A program made the translations under genes and the position numbers. DNA of 55,300 nt. Source: Nitrospira sp. GTDB taxonomy: Bacteria > Nitrospirota > Nitrospiria > Nitrospirales > Nitrospiraceae. Shown piece by piece: positions 13,849-17,272 of this stretch (position 1 is the first letter of the stretch; every line of letters begins with the position of its first letter). Location: assembly GCA_029865225.1 (NCBI GenBank), contig JAOUHJ010000016.1:1-55300 (forward strand), given 5' to 3'. A model generated the notes under the pieces. It searched no databases, was not told where the DNA came from, and was given only the letters and a program-made list of their open reading frames with translations.

Positions 13849-14361
13849 ATGACTAAGAAATCAAGTGGCAATACCAAGAGCACCCGGCAAAGTTGGGATG
13901 AGTATTTTTATGAAATGGCTAAACTTGTCGCAACTCGGTCTCGTGATGATTGCCCGGTAGGGGCGGTAGTTGTTGGAGAGGATCAGGTTGTAATTGCAAC
14001 AGGTTATAATGGGTTGGCTAGGCGTGTTTCAGACTTGGAAGAGCGCATAGACACCAAGCCAGAAAAACTTCGCTGGACTGTTCATGCTGAAGCAAACGCG
14101 ATATGTAATGCGGCTCGCGTTGGAACATCTACAAAGGATGGTACAATCTACGTTACAAAATTTCCTTGCTCAATGTGTTCAGGCTTGCTTGTACAAGCAG
14201 GTATACGCCGTCTCGTTACTCATGACACAGCTTTTTGGGGACATGATCCAAACGGCGACGATGGACAGCGATCATTGAGAATGCTAATGGAAGCAGGCGT
14301 AGAAATACATGCTCCAAATATAAATATTGGCGAAATTCCAACAGGCCGACGAGCTGCATAA
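13849..14361 (+). CDS. Cytidine/deoxycytidylate deaminase family protein
   Basis: A 170-residue zinc-dependent deaminase: the HAEANAI motif carries the zinc histidine and the proton-shuttling glutamate, and PCSMCSGLLVQAGIRRLV carries the two zinc cysteines. The CPVGAVVVGEDQVVIATGYNG block is typical of dCMP deaminases (ComEB type), which make dUMP for thymidylate synthesis. The coding sequence is visibly richer in A and T than its neighbours and uses AT-ending codons, which suggests acquisition by transfer. The ATG at 13849 is preferred over a TTG at 13828; neither has a strong ribosome site. Phages and defence islands also carry such deaminases, so a role outside housekeeping pyrimidine synthesis is possible but unproven. 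Confidence 0.85.
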   Translation: MTKKSSGNTKSTRQSWDEYFYEMAKLVATRSRDDCPVGAVVVGEDQVVIATGYNGLARRVSDLEERIDTKPEKLRWTVHAEANAICNAARVGTSTKDGTIYVTKFPCSMCSGLLVQAGIRRLVTHDTAFWGHDPNGDDGQRSLRMLMEAGVEIHAPNINIGEIPTGRRAA

Positions 14362-14477: not shown

Positions 14478-14820
14478 TGACCTTCCCCTGAATCCGTGGA
14501 CACCGGGTTATGCGACCGCCGCCTGTGCTTCATACTCAGCCGGGGACCGATAGCCGAAGGTCGAGTGGCGGCACTGCCGATTATAAAACACTTCGAGATC
14601 TTCAAAGATCTCCTGCTTGGCCTCTTCCCGTGTGTGGTACTGCCGATAATGAACGAGTTCCCGTTTCAAGGTGCCAAAGAAGCTCTCGACGCAGGCGTTG
14701 TCCCAGCAAGTCCCTTTGAGCCTCATGCTGGAGATGAGACCGTACTCCTCAAGGTCATGCTGGTAGCTCGTGGCTGCATACTGACTCCCACGGTCTGTAT
14801 GGGGAGGGCAGAAAGGGGTC
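14478..14820 (-). mobile_element. Truncated IS3-family element
   Basis: The right part of an IS3-family element. It runs from a terminal-repeat-like sequence at 14478-14504 (begins TGACCTTCCCC and includes GGACACC) through the last third of the transposase, and is cut off at the right end of the IS1111-type element. No second copy of the terminal repeat is found further right, so the rest of the element has been lost rather than merely displaced. Confidence 0.7.
14508..14820 (-). pseudogene. IS3-family transposase OrfB, C-terminal fragment
   Basis: About 100 codons remain. HTDRGSQYAA holds the second aspartate of the DDE triad and CWDNACVESFFGTLKREL holds the glutamate. YNRQCRHSTFGYRSPAEYE is the standard IS3 C-terminal rve_3 segment. 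The first catalytic aspartate and the N-terminal HTH_21 region are missing, because the reading frame runs into the neighbouring element at about 14820. The fragment cannot be active. Confidence 0.85.
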
Positions 14821-14823
14821 GCC

Positions 14824-14837
14824 CATCTCGAAGGCTC
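14824..14837 (+). repeat. Subterminal inverted repeat, right end of the IS1111-type element
   Basis: CATCTCGAAGGCTC is a perfect 14-base inverted match to 16375-16388. The match stops exactly at both flanks. Subterminal rather than terminal repeats distinguish the IS1111 group from the rest of IS110. Confidence 0.85.
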
Positions 14838-15289
14838 TGGTCAAGAGGGCACAACTCCCCATGCCCTCCGTATTCTGCGAACGGGGCGAGGTTTCACGCG
14901 ACAACATTCGCCCTCGCCAGACCAATCGCGAGACAGCGTCCCATCCCGGTTGTCCACGTCAGTGGTGTTCGCTCTGTCCTGAGCCGCACCAGTCACCCAT
15001 CAGGATCAAGGCCTCGGAGCGAGCTCGCGGCACGGATCAGCTCCAGCCCCTGGCACGTCGTGCCCCAGACAACCGTCGGTTCTCGGTCGCGTCCATCGTA
15101 ACTACGCACAGGATGTTGGGCTACCAGCGCGCTGGTGCCAACCCCATTCTGGCTCACCACCGAGGCGTCTCAGTCCCCACGCTGCGTGGCGCGGGAGAAA
15201 ACAGGGTGGAGACTGCGGCTAATCGGGAGTGCGGGGTCGCACCCCACCCCCTTTGCGAGCTCTCAGTTCCACCCCTCATCGGTTCGCAA
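14838..15289 (-). ncRNA. Candidate seekRNA/bridge-RNA region of the IS1111-type element
   Basis: This segment lies between the transposase stop codon and the right inverted repeat and has no plausible reading frame. On the minus strand it is full of potential stems. TTGCGA/TCGCAA (15284-15289 with 15253-15258) begins directly after the stop codon. GGGGTGCGACCCC lies at 15233-15245. A 10-bp stem with one G-U pair joins 15206-15215 with 15171-15180 across a 25-base loop. ACCAGCGCGCTGGT lies at 15123-15136 and GGCACGACGTGCC at 15052-15064. IS1111-group elements are known to encode, downstream of the transposase, a structured RNA whose loops pair with donor and target DNA. Position and structure fit; the exact RNA ends and guide loops are not resolved. 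Confidence 0.5.
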
Positions 15290-16306
15290 TCAGCCGAAGG
15301 CGCGTGACAGATTGAACGGCACCTGCTCGCGCAACATGTGATAACAGGCCCGTGCCAGTTTATGCGCCACGGCCTTGAGTGCCACCAACGGATGTGTCCG
15401 CGTCTGCTTCCGCTGATAATAATTCCGAATCACGGCCTCATAGCGAATCGCGAAGTGCGCCGCCTCGATGAAGGCCCAGCTCAAGTATTTATTGCCGTTC
15501 TTTGTATTCCCAGCTCCTTTGCGCTTGCCGTTGCTAAGATGTTCACTGCCCACGCAGCGGCAATAGGAGGCGAAGTGTCCAACGGTCGGAAATCGCCGGA
15601 GGTCGCCGATTTCTAACAGAATGGTGCCTGCCAAGATCGGCCCAATGCCCGGAACGCTTTGTAACAGCGCATACCCGGGCTGCTTCTGTTCGGCCTCGCG
15701 CACCATCTCCTCCATCCGCCGAATCTCCTGCTCCAAACACTGCAGGATAGTCAACGAACTCCTGACCGCGTGCACCTGCTCGGGAAACGACACGAGGGTT
15801 TGGATACTGTCCGGTGTGAGCGCCCGGAGGCGCGGCAGGGACAAGCGGGTTCCGGTCAGGCGCGTGAGCAGACTTTGCAGGCTGAGCACCACCATCGTCT
15901 TGTGTCGCACCAACTGACTGCGTTTCCGTAGGAGATCACGAACGGCGCGTGCGGCTTTGGGATAGATGTACCCGGTGGGGAGCAAGCCGAGACGGAGAAG
16001 GTGCGCGAGCCACCGCGCATCATGCTGATCGTCGGCGTGCTTTAGGCCACTGTACTGCGGTAGCGCTGGGGCATGGGCCAAGTGCACGCGATAGCCCGCA
16101 TCCATGAGACCATCGACGAGCCAATACCAATTATAGGTCGATTCGACAACCACGCCCTGGATTGTAGCCCGATACGGTTCCAGCGCGGTGAGTACCAGCG
16201 TGAGGTCATTGCGCAGCCGCTTCTGATACAGCACCCGATCCGTCTCATCAATGACCACCACCACACTGCTGGTGGCATGAAGATCGATCCCAACATAACA
16301 CATCAT
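15290..16306 (-). CDS. IS110-family (IS1111 type) DEDD transposase/recombinase
   Basis: A 338-residue transposase. The N-terminal RuvC-like domain (DEDD_Tnp_IS110) shows YVGIDLHATSS with the first aspartate, VVVESTYNWYWLVD with the glutamate, and KHADDQHDARWLAHL with the last two aspartates. The C-terminal Tnp_20 domain shows LLQSVPGIGPILAGTIL, a helix-hairpin-helix, and GNTKNGNKYLSWAFIEAAH, which includes the candidate nucleophilic serine. Such enzymes recombine DNA under guidance of an element-encoded RNA. The ATG at 16306 follows AGGAGG by five bases; the longer frame from 16393 begins inside the terminal repeat. All expected motifs are intact, so the protein may be active. Confidence 0.92.
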   Translation of the reverse strand: MMCYVGIDLHATSSVVVVIDETDRVLYQKRLRNDLTLVLTALEPYRATIQGVVVESTYNWYWLVDGLMDAGYRVHLAHAPALPQYSGLKHADDQHDARWLAHLLRLGLLPTGYIYPKAARAVRDLLRKRSQLVRHKTMVVLSLQSLLTRLTGTRLSLPRLRALTPDSIQTLVSFPEQVHAVRSSLTILQCLEQEIRRMEEMVREAEQKQPGYALLQSVPGIGPILAGTILLEIGDLRRFPTVGHFASYCRCVGSEHLSNGKRKGAGNTKNGNKYLSWAFIEAAHFAIRYEAVIRNYYQRKQTRTHPLVALKAVAHKLARACYHMLREQVPFNLSRAFG

Positions 16307-16374
16307 CACAACCTCCTCGGTTAAGGTGGATGAGAACGCCGCGTCGCACACGACGACTCTACACTCCACGAGAG

Positions 16375-16388
16375 GAGCCTTCGAGATG
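16375..16388 (-). repeat. Subterminal inverted repeat, left end of the IS1111-type element
   Basis: On the minus strand it reads CATCTCGAAGGCTC, identical to 14824-14837 on the plus strand. About seven bases (16389-16395) probably separate it from the element's left end, by analogy with other IS1111 members. Confidence 0.85.
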
Positions 16389-16395
16389 ATCATCG

Positions 16396-16685: not shown

Positions 16686-16982
16686 ATGGCAAAAACCTTG
16701 TCGCTATCTGAAGTAAAAACTCGCCTCCCAGAGCTTGTGGCAGGTGTTCAAGAGCGTGAAGAGGAGGTCATCGTCACAAAGAATGGCCGTCCGGCTGCCA
16801 TCTTGATCAATATCGATGAATATACCCGTCTCAAAGAGACCTTGGATGTCCTGAGCGATCCTGGACTGATGAGCCAGATTGCCGAAAGCCGAGCTTTTTA
16901 CAAAACAAAACGCAAAGGGCTCTCGTTTGAAGACGTATTCAGTGAGCCTCTCACACCAAGTAAGAAGCGACGCACGGCGTGA
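16686..16982 (+). CDS. Phd/YefM family antitoxin
   Basis: A 98-residue antitoxin. The N-terminal half (LSLSEVKTRLPELV, then EEEVIVTKNGRPAAILINIDEY) is the Phd/YefM DNA-binding dimerisation domain. The C-terminal half (residues 55-98) is the flexible toxin-wrapping tail. AGAGG lies six bases before the ATG. The stop codon overlaps the toxin start by four bases (GTGA), so both are made in a coupled way. The upstream palindrome is the likely autoregulatory site. Confidence 0.9.
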   Translation: MAKTLSLSEVKTRLPELVAGVQEREEEVIVTKNGRPAAILINIDEYTRLKETLDVLSDPGLMSQIAESRAFYKTKRKGLSFEDVFSEPLTPSKKRRTA

Positions 16983-17272
16983 CTCCCTTCCGTGTGGACA
17001 TCCCTCCCCATGTCGCAACAGTTATCCGCTCACTCCACCCCGATCTTAAGGCACTGATCAAGTCTGCCATTCGTGCGATTACCACAAATCCTGAATGTGG
17101 AGAACCGCTCAAGCGGGATCTTGCTGGATTACATAAATATCGCGTTCGCCGCTTTCGCATCGTCTATTCCGTCGACCAGAGAAAACGTATCGTTCGTCTG
17201 ATGGCGGTAGGTCACCGTCGAACTATCTATGAAGAGCTGACCGAGCAGTTTCGACGAAAGACGCGATCATAG
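16979..17272 (+). CDS. RelE/ParE family toxin
   Basis: A 97-residue RelE-fold protein starting with GTG. The core GEPLKRDLAGLHKYRVRRFRIVYSVD matches the RelE/ParE consensus (KL.G....RVGDYRIIY...). It is followed by the basic VRLMAVGHRRTIYEEL. RelE-type members cleave mRNA in the ribosome, while ParE-type members poison gyrase; the sequence alone does not separate them, although the Arg/Lys-rich strand and terminal Tyr favour RelE. It is paired with the Phd antitoxin. Confidence 0.9.
   Translation: MTPFRVDIPPHVATVIRSLHPDLKALIKSAIRAITTNPECGEPLKRDLAGLHKYRVRRFRIVYSVDQRKRIVRLMAVGHRRTIYEELTEQFRRKTRS

Follow-up and report, generated by a model that had tools for sequence, protein, structure and literature searches.

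The insertion sequence at positions 14821-16395 of Nitrospira sp. contig JAOUHJ010000016.1 is very probably an RNA-guided member of the IS1111 group, its landing site chosen by an RNA that is encoded behind the transposase gene. A preliminary description of the window (the whole stretch of 55,300 nt that was analysed) had regarded the guide RNA of this element as undescribed. As far as we could find this is right, while the kind of RNA, and with it the class of mechanism, is well described (seekRNA and bridge RNA, 2024; PMC11187229, PMC11208160); what appears to be new here is a handshake detail for the IS1111 half.

The earlier view of the element as a complete IS1111-type insertion was borne out by a 337-amino-acid transposase, perfect 14-bp subterminal inverted repeats, and 471 nt of non-coding region (NCR) 3' of the transposase stop codon. 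Its parts were located as follows:

14821-16395, minus strand: the whole IS1111-group element, 1574-1575 bp, with a border base common to the target core
16394-16395, minus strand: left core dinucleotide CG (YG across the clade)
16389-16395, minus strand: 7-bp left extension CGATGAT, outside the left repeat
16375-16388, minus strand: left subterminal inverted repeat CATCTCGAAGGCTC
15290-16303, minus strand: DEDD transposase/recombinase, 337 aa, stop included
14839-14844, minus strand: -35 hexamer TTGACC, predicted to form a promoter with GATGAT of the left end (16389-16394) only in the circular form
14824-14837, minus strand: right subterminal inverted repeat GAGCCTTCGAGATG; beyond it come GG and the core CG
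14820-14821, minus strand: right core dinucleotide CG

The transposase reading frame, which starts at 16303, is intact as had been claimed, and contains both IS110-family Pfam domains (DEDD and Transposase_20). The protein's score against the NCBIfam model 'IS110 family RNA-guided transposase' exceeded the cut-off, and the recombinases of IS621 and ISCro4, whose structures are solved, are homologues of it. The acidic residues and the C-terminal serine noted earlier could be placed as candidate catalytic residues D7, E54, D92, D95, and S257, the last of which aligns with the catalytic-serine region of IS621. When compared with the IS1111 motif GL-P----S(T)G, its own CVGSEHLSNG has the serine, without the G--P part and without a G directly after it. 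Protein length and repeat length both fall within the ranges of the IS1111 group (330-350 aa and 7-17 bp). A match below the cut-off (E 2.7e-11) also connects the C-terminal half of the transposase (15290-16303) with the endonuclease model of TIGR-Tas, in agreement with the published link between IS110 and TIGR-Tas.

The subterminal repeat was exact over 14 of 14 bp, as first described, and was present at IS1111 spacing in every close relative; it is thus not a product of chance. All relatives with clear ends begin with YG and ATAATCATCT on the left and finish with ATGGG and YG on the right. The extensions outside the repeats measure 7 bp on the left and 2 or 3 bp on the right, depending on where the common core is counted. 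CG stands directly at both ends of the element, and the right border was placed to within one base. The sequences favour a unit of 1574 bp (14822-16395) plus a common 2-bp core, since uninterrupted GACTCCCGACCCC occurs three times in the element's own genome and GACTCCGACCCC never; two of these three copies (on C22 and C95) lie near contig ends in matching surroundings and may represent a single locus. GACTCCCGACCCC was also observed twice in genome G187 and five times in G012. The one-base-shorter motif, commoner in two related genomes (G005 and G041), points the other way. A single full copy is present in the 4.1-Mb genome. Two decayed right ends without a transposase were found there as well (L003 on C145 and L002 on C144); one keeps part of the guide RNA, and the copy on C144 has the right flank ACCCCTTC, the same target as that of the full element.

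About 450 non-coding bases had been described behind the stop codon, close to the number measured, and the right end had been called unusually long. The latter is correct only against elements such as ISEc11 and fails within the clade: relatives with clear ends, from several phyla, all have NCRs of about 380-470 nt, so that the long NCR is a clade trait. Three NCRs were aberrant: that of L008 is interrupted by an insertion within its donor guide region, that of L042 has lost about 75 nt in the long-range stem, and that of L044 carries about 120 additional nt. Folded as a single sequence, the NCR was modestly more stable than its shuffled versions (z = -2.0), which is weak evidence on its own, and no Rfam family matched it in gathering-threshold and E-value searches. 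A consensus fold of 27 NCRs (RNAalifold) contained 54 pairs, 31 of which showed at least one two-sided, compensatory change. It places the target loop inside an outer stem and a donor multiloop inside a long-range stem, with covarying inner hairpins. Covariation thus argues strongly for a folded RNA in the NCR, folding energy only modestly.

Near the right end, 63 of 66 elements have the sequence TTGAC, which was present in 2.5% of other NCR stretches. Its spacing to a GATAAT-like hexamer of the left end is 17-18 nt in most cases, so that the promoter would arise only where the ends are joined; a junction promoter has likewise been reported for ISEc11 (PMC11187229).

The claim that a guide RNA is encoded behind the transposase was supported, and the loops of this RNA could be located. 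Counted from the first base of the stop codon, the target loop begins after 38 nt; the donor loop lies about 250 nt further downstream. The target loop is ordered RTG, hairpin, LTG, core, and two nucleotides; the donor loop is ordered RDG, stems, LDG, core, and two nucleotides. On this copy they read:

14979-15274, minus strand: structured guide (bridge/seek) RNA, predicted, probable extent
15205-15274, minus strand: outer stem P1 of the consensus fold, closing the target loop (arms about 15258-15274 and 15205-15220)
15247-15254, minus strand: RTG AAAGGGGG, matching the right flank ACCCCTTT at 7 of 8 positions
15226-15230, minus strand: LTG ACTCC, in the target loop; the left flank ends in the same 5 nt (5/5), and pairing with the bottom strand is predicted
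15224-15225, minus strand: core copy CG in the target loop
15222-15223, minus strand: target-loop handshake AT, equal to the left-end bases after the core, its second base covarying with left-end position 3
14979-15173, minus strand: long-range stem P2 of the consensus fold, closing the donor multiloop (arms about 15165-15173 and 14979-14987)
15068-15074, minus strand: probable RDG GGTTGTC, complementary with wobbles to GATGATC of the left end
14996-15001, minus strand: LDG GATGGG, the same sequence as the right end, in the hyperconserved donor loop
14994-14995, minus strand: core copy TG in the donor loop, a wobble against CG
14992-14993, minus strand: donor-loop handshake AC, equal to right-flank bases 2-3 and covarying with them

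The single RTG mismatch is at the base next to the core (G46; G opposite A) and is confined to this copy; its close relatives match. An RDG that is the exact complement of the left end was rejected, as no consistent exact match was found. When wobbles were tolerated, 47 of the 50 loci had a segment, at the position expected from the fold, that could form five or more of the 7 pairs, as against about 5% in the control. RDG probably pairs with the left end, as judged from the complementarity of two conserved sequences rather than from covariation.

The guides were found by aligning 53 NCRs, from about 60 relatives overall, and comparing each column with the element's own flanks and ends. NCR positions 63-68 repeat bases -5 to -1 of the left flank, followed by the first base of the core (z 4.9-11.7), and positions 40-46, approximately, are complementary to right-flank bases 2-9. 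Position 71 equals left-end base 3 in 51 of 53 NCRs (z 10.7), positions 300-301 equal right-flank bases 2-3 (z 10.2 and 6.9), and a donor-loop segment tracks a G/A change at right-end position -2 (z 8.7). Positions 300-301 fall in the most conserved segment of the NCR, directly after the copy of right end and core, GATGGG-TG. When own flanks were compared with swapped ones at 51 loci, RTG matched 5.0 versus 3.3 of 6 bases (z 12.7) and LTG 3.7 versus 1.8 of 5 (z 13.3), LTG being the weaker match; the total z was 17.2, and none of 20,000 permutations came close. Loci with right flanks other than ACCC (29 in number) gave 143 of 174 matches against an expected 80 +/- 6.

All of these z values are inflated by shared ancestry, since the loci were picked by protein similarity, and the set is limited by the quality of the metagenome-assembled genomes. 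The cleaner evidence is the exchange of flanks between nearest relatives, chosen to limit this effect, and the multi-copy genome G187. In the nearest-relative swaps the own flank was better by 18 to 3 for RTG and by 19 to 1 for LTG, with the others tied. Eight plasmid elements held out of the discovery set, some of them related to discovery loci, had RTG runs of 5-10 nt (at least 7 nt in seven of the eight), as compared with averages of 3.4-4.0 for other flanks. Some loci fitted poorly (L012, L029, L022, and L138). Among the homologues, then, the loops varied together with flanks and ends, as the preliminary description had anticipated for a guide RNA, and the opposite pattern, of loops indifferent to their flanks, was absent.

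Close relatives (84-87% protein identity) reside in other Nitrospira genomes; those at 50-63% identity come from Nitrospirota, Elusimicrobia, Burkholderiales, and others. A sister element, 86% related, occurs in G187 as seven identical copies, whose flanks are ACTCC-CG-ACCCCTTT (ACTCC-CG-ACCCCTT(T)) with modest variation and agree with the prediction from the RNA (AAAGGGGT; ACTCC-CG). These copies (L166-L172) have the same score and guide region, a recent burst. In the genome of the present element, its joined flanks AGACTCCCGACCCCTTT occur uninterrupted on C81 with no mismatch, at four more sites with one, and at four with two. The target is a short dispersed repeat, and other IS1111 elements likewise aim at repeats (REP, attC; PMC11187229). 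The dispersed motif TAAAGACTCCCGACCCCTTT and its variants (L115, L118, L119, L122, and L123) are found several times per contig on C113 and C140. An origin of the target as a RAYT/REP end was rejected, as the Y1_Tnp loci of this genome lack the motif.

No allele of exactly this site without the insertion was found, as flanking homologues diverge before the junction. On the right, a remnant reading as an IS3-family transposase (14513-14802, minus strand) has two related copies (80-81%) on C96 and C79 of the same genome; the right flank was rejected as part of it, similarity to the remnant's copies beginning about 18-25 nt beyond the junction. Further out lies a ComEB-like dCMP/cytidine deaminase gene (13852-14361), with a partial match, below cut-off, to an anti-phage dCTP deaminase model. 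On the other side the element directly adjoins a Phd/YefM-ParE type toxin-antitoxin pair (16686-17272); this region is kept in several Nitrospira genomes, the stretch beside the junction is not.

Each 3' guide continues beyond the core for two bases that match the partner DNA and covary with it. The target loop reads left flank, YG, and A(T/A/G), the last base tracking the left end; the donor loop reads right end, YG, and two bases that track the target. Donor-loop bases and right-flank bases 2-3 were AC:AC in 31 elements, TC:TC in 10, GC:GC in three, and TT:TT and TG:TG in one each, with few exceptions; L057 also has CG:CG. Independent concordant changes were observed between close relatives (L041/L063, at 91% protein identity, L034/L068, L054/L074, L043/L058, and L036/L044), while four nearest pairs did not fit. 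Experiments support a handshake guide in IS621, where the two bases that follow each 3' guide pair with DNA of the partner once strands have been exchanged (PMC11208158). By position and covariation, the bases described here appear to equal this handshake guide with the DNA strands mirrored (right of the core, bottom strand). Our search of freely accessible journal papers found no report of handshake guides for IS1111.

Alternative explanations apply to different parts of this reading. That the NCR is an ordinary spacer which folds because it is rich in GC, and guides nothing, we regard as practically excluded; the modest folding energy and the missing Rfam family would suit a spacer, but the covariation, the compensated pairs, and the swap tests contradict it. 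Nor is it at all probable that the NCR makes a target-finding seekRNA only, the hyperconserved downstream segment being a site for protein binding or processing that resembles the right end incidentally. Published IS1111 seekRNAs are indeed short (82-96 nt), with only target matches reported (PMC11187229); a pure protein site, however, need not match the right end, follow its G/A change, and follow target bases 2-3, and the segment lies in a multiloop, where Durrant et al. describe the donor nucleotides of many IS1111 RNAs (PMC11208160).

Two further possibilities are less remote, though each is unlikely in our judgment. The handshake-like matches may reflect shared descent, or recognition of junctions during excision, instead of pairing during strand exchange: the RNA strings correspond to left flank-core-left end and right end-core-right flank, the junctions of an integrated element, and several changes are clade-wide. 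Against this stand the independent concordant changes between close relatives, and a position and role the same as those of the IS621 handshake guide (PMC11208158). Excision is the same reaction reversed, so that the handshake and excision readings overlap. It is also conceivable, if doubtful, that the RNA is real for the clade while this particular copy is a fossil. A fossil would fit a genome in which the only complete copy is accompanied by two decayed right ends; it would also fit base G46 of RTG, which mismatches its own flank and differs from close relatives. The transposase, both ends, the core, and all other guide bases are nevertheless intact, mismatches are also present in other elements, and this copy may remain active.

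The order of events for a guided, handshake-forming element would be as follows. The ends of the element would join as a circle with the junction GGGCGATGATCATC, whose promoter would transcribe transposase and NCR, as others have shown for ISEc11. The NCR RNA would fold into two guide loops and be bound by the recombinase. Of the target-loop guides, RTG would pair to the right of the core, with the top strand (ACCCCTTT), and LTG together with the core to the left, with the bottom strand (ACTCC-CG). The element's own ends would be read by the donor loop, the left end probably by RDG and the right end (GATGGG-YG) by LDG with the core. The DEDD recombinase would then exchange strands at the YG core; since each 3' guide carries two partner-matching bases, the new strand could pair on after exchange. 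Turned by 180 degrees, IS1111 DNA has the layout of IS110, which explains the reversed guide order of Siddiquee et al., who cautioned that the mechanism of movement should not be assumed identical in both families. We lean slightly towards a single RNA topology acting on DNA turned in this way, with IS1111 recombinases first cutting and exchanging the strand opposite to that of IS621, relative to the transposase gene. The 2024 papers left open in which order IS1111 recombination exchanges the strands, and the mirrored handshake gives a direct way to test this. With dozens of IS1111 elements that were retargeted independently in nature and whose guides can be read, the clade also provides ready material from which to derive target rules for programmable recombinases.

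Among known systems, the IS1111-group seekRNA elements ISEc11, ISPa11, and ISKpn4 (PMC11187229) share the subterminal repeat with a 7-bp left extension, the NCR downstream of the transposase gene, a top-strand guide 5' of the bottom-strand guide (here RTG, then LTG), and the junction promoter, which is predicted here. The present element differs in its guide loops, about 250 nt apart, in a donor loop and handshake bases recognized by covariation, and in its target; the NCR of ISEc11 is about 316 nt by the coordinates in PMC11187229, as compared to 471 nt here. Plasmid relatives labelled 'ISGsu4 family' (an ISfinder name; ISGsu4 is known here by that label alone) have transposases 52% identical and the same ends, loops, and core. 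Considered as a putative bridge RNA, the NCR product has strong covariation in the target loop, and in the donor loop covariation at one LDG position and the handshake bases. With IS621 and the IS110 group (PMC11208160, PMC11208158; PDB 8wt6) the element shares target and donor loops of two guides each, a core dinucleotide, handshake bases that immediately follow the 3' guide, and a homologous transposase; it differs in that the RNA is at the right end and not the left, the DNA strands and sides are mirrored, the donor loop is a multiloop, and the subterminal inverted repeat is long.
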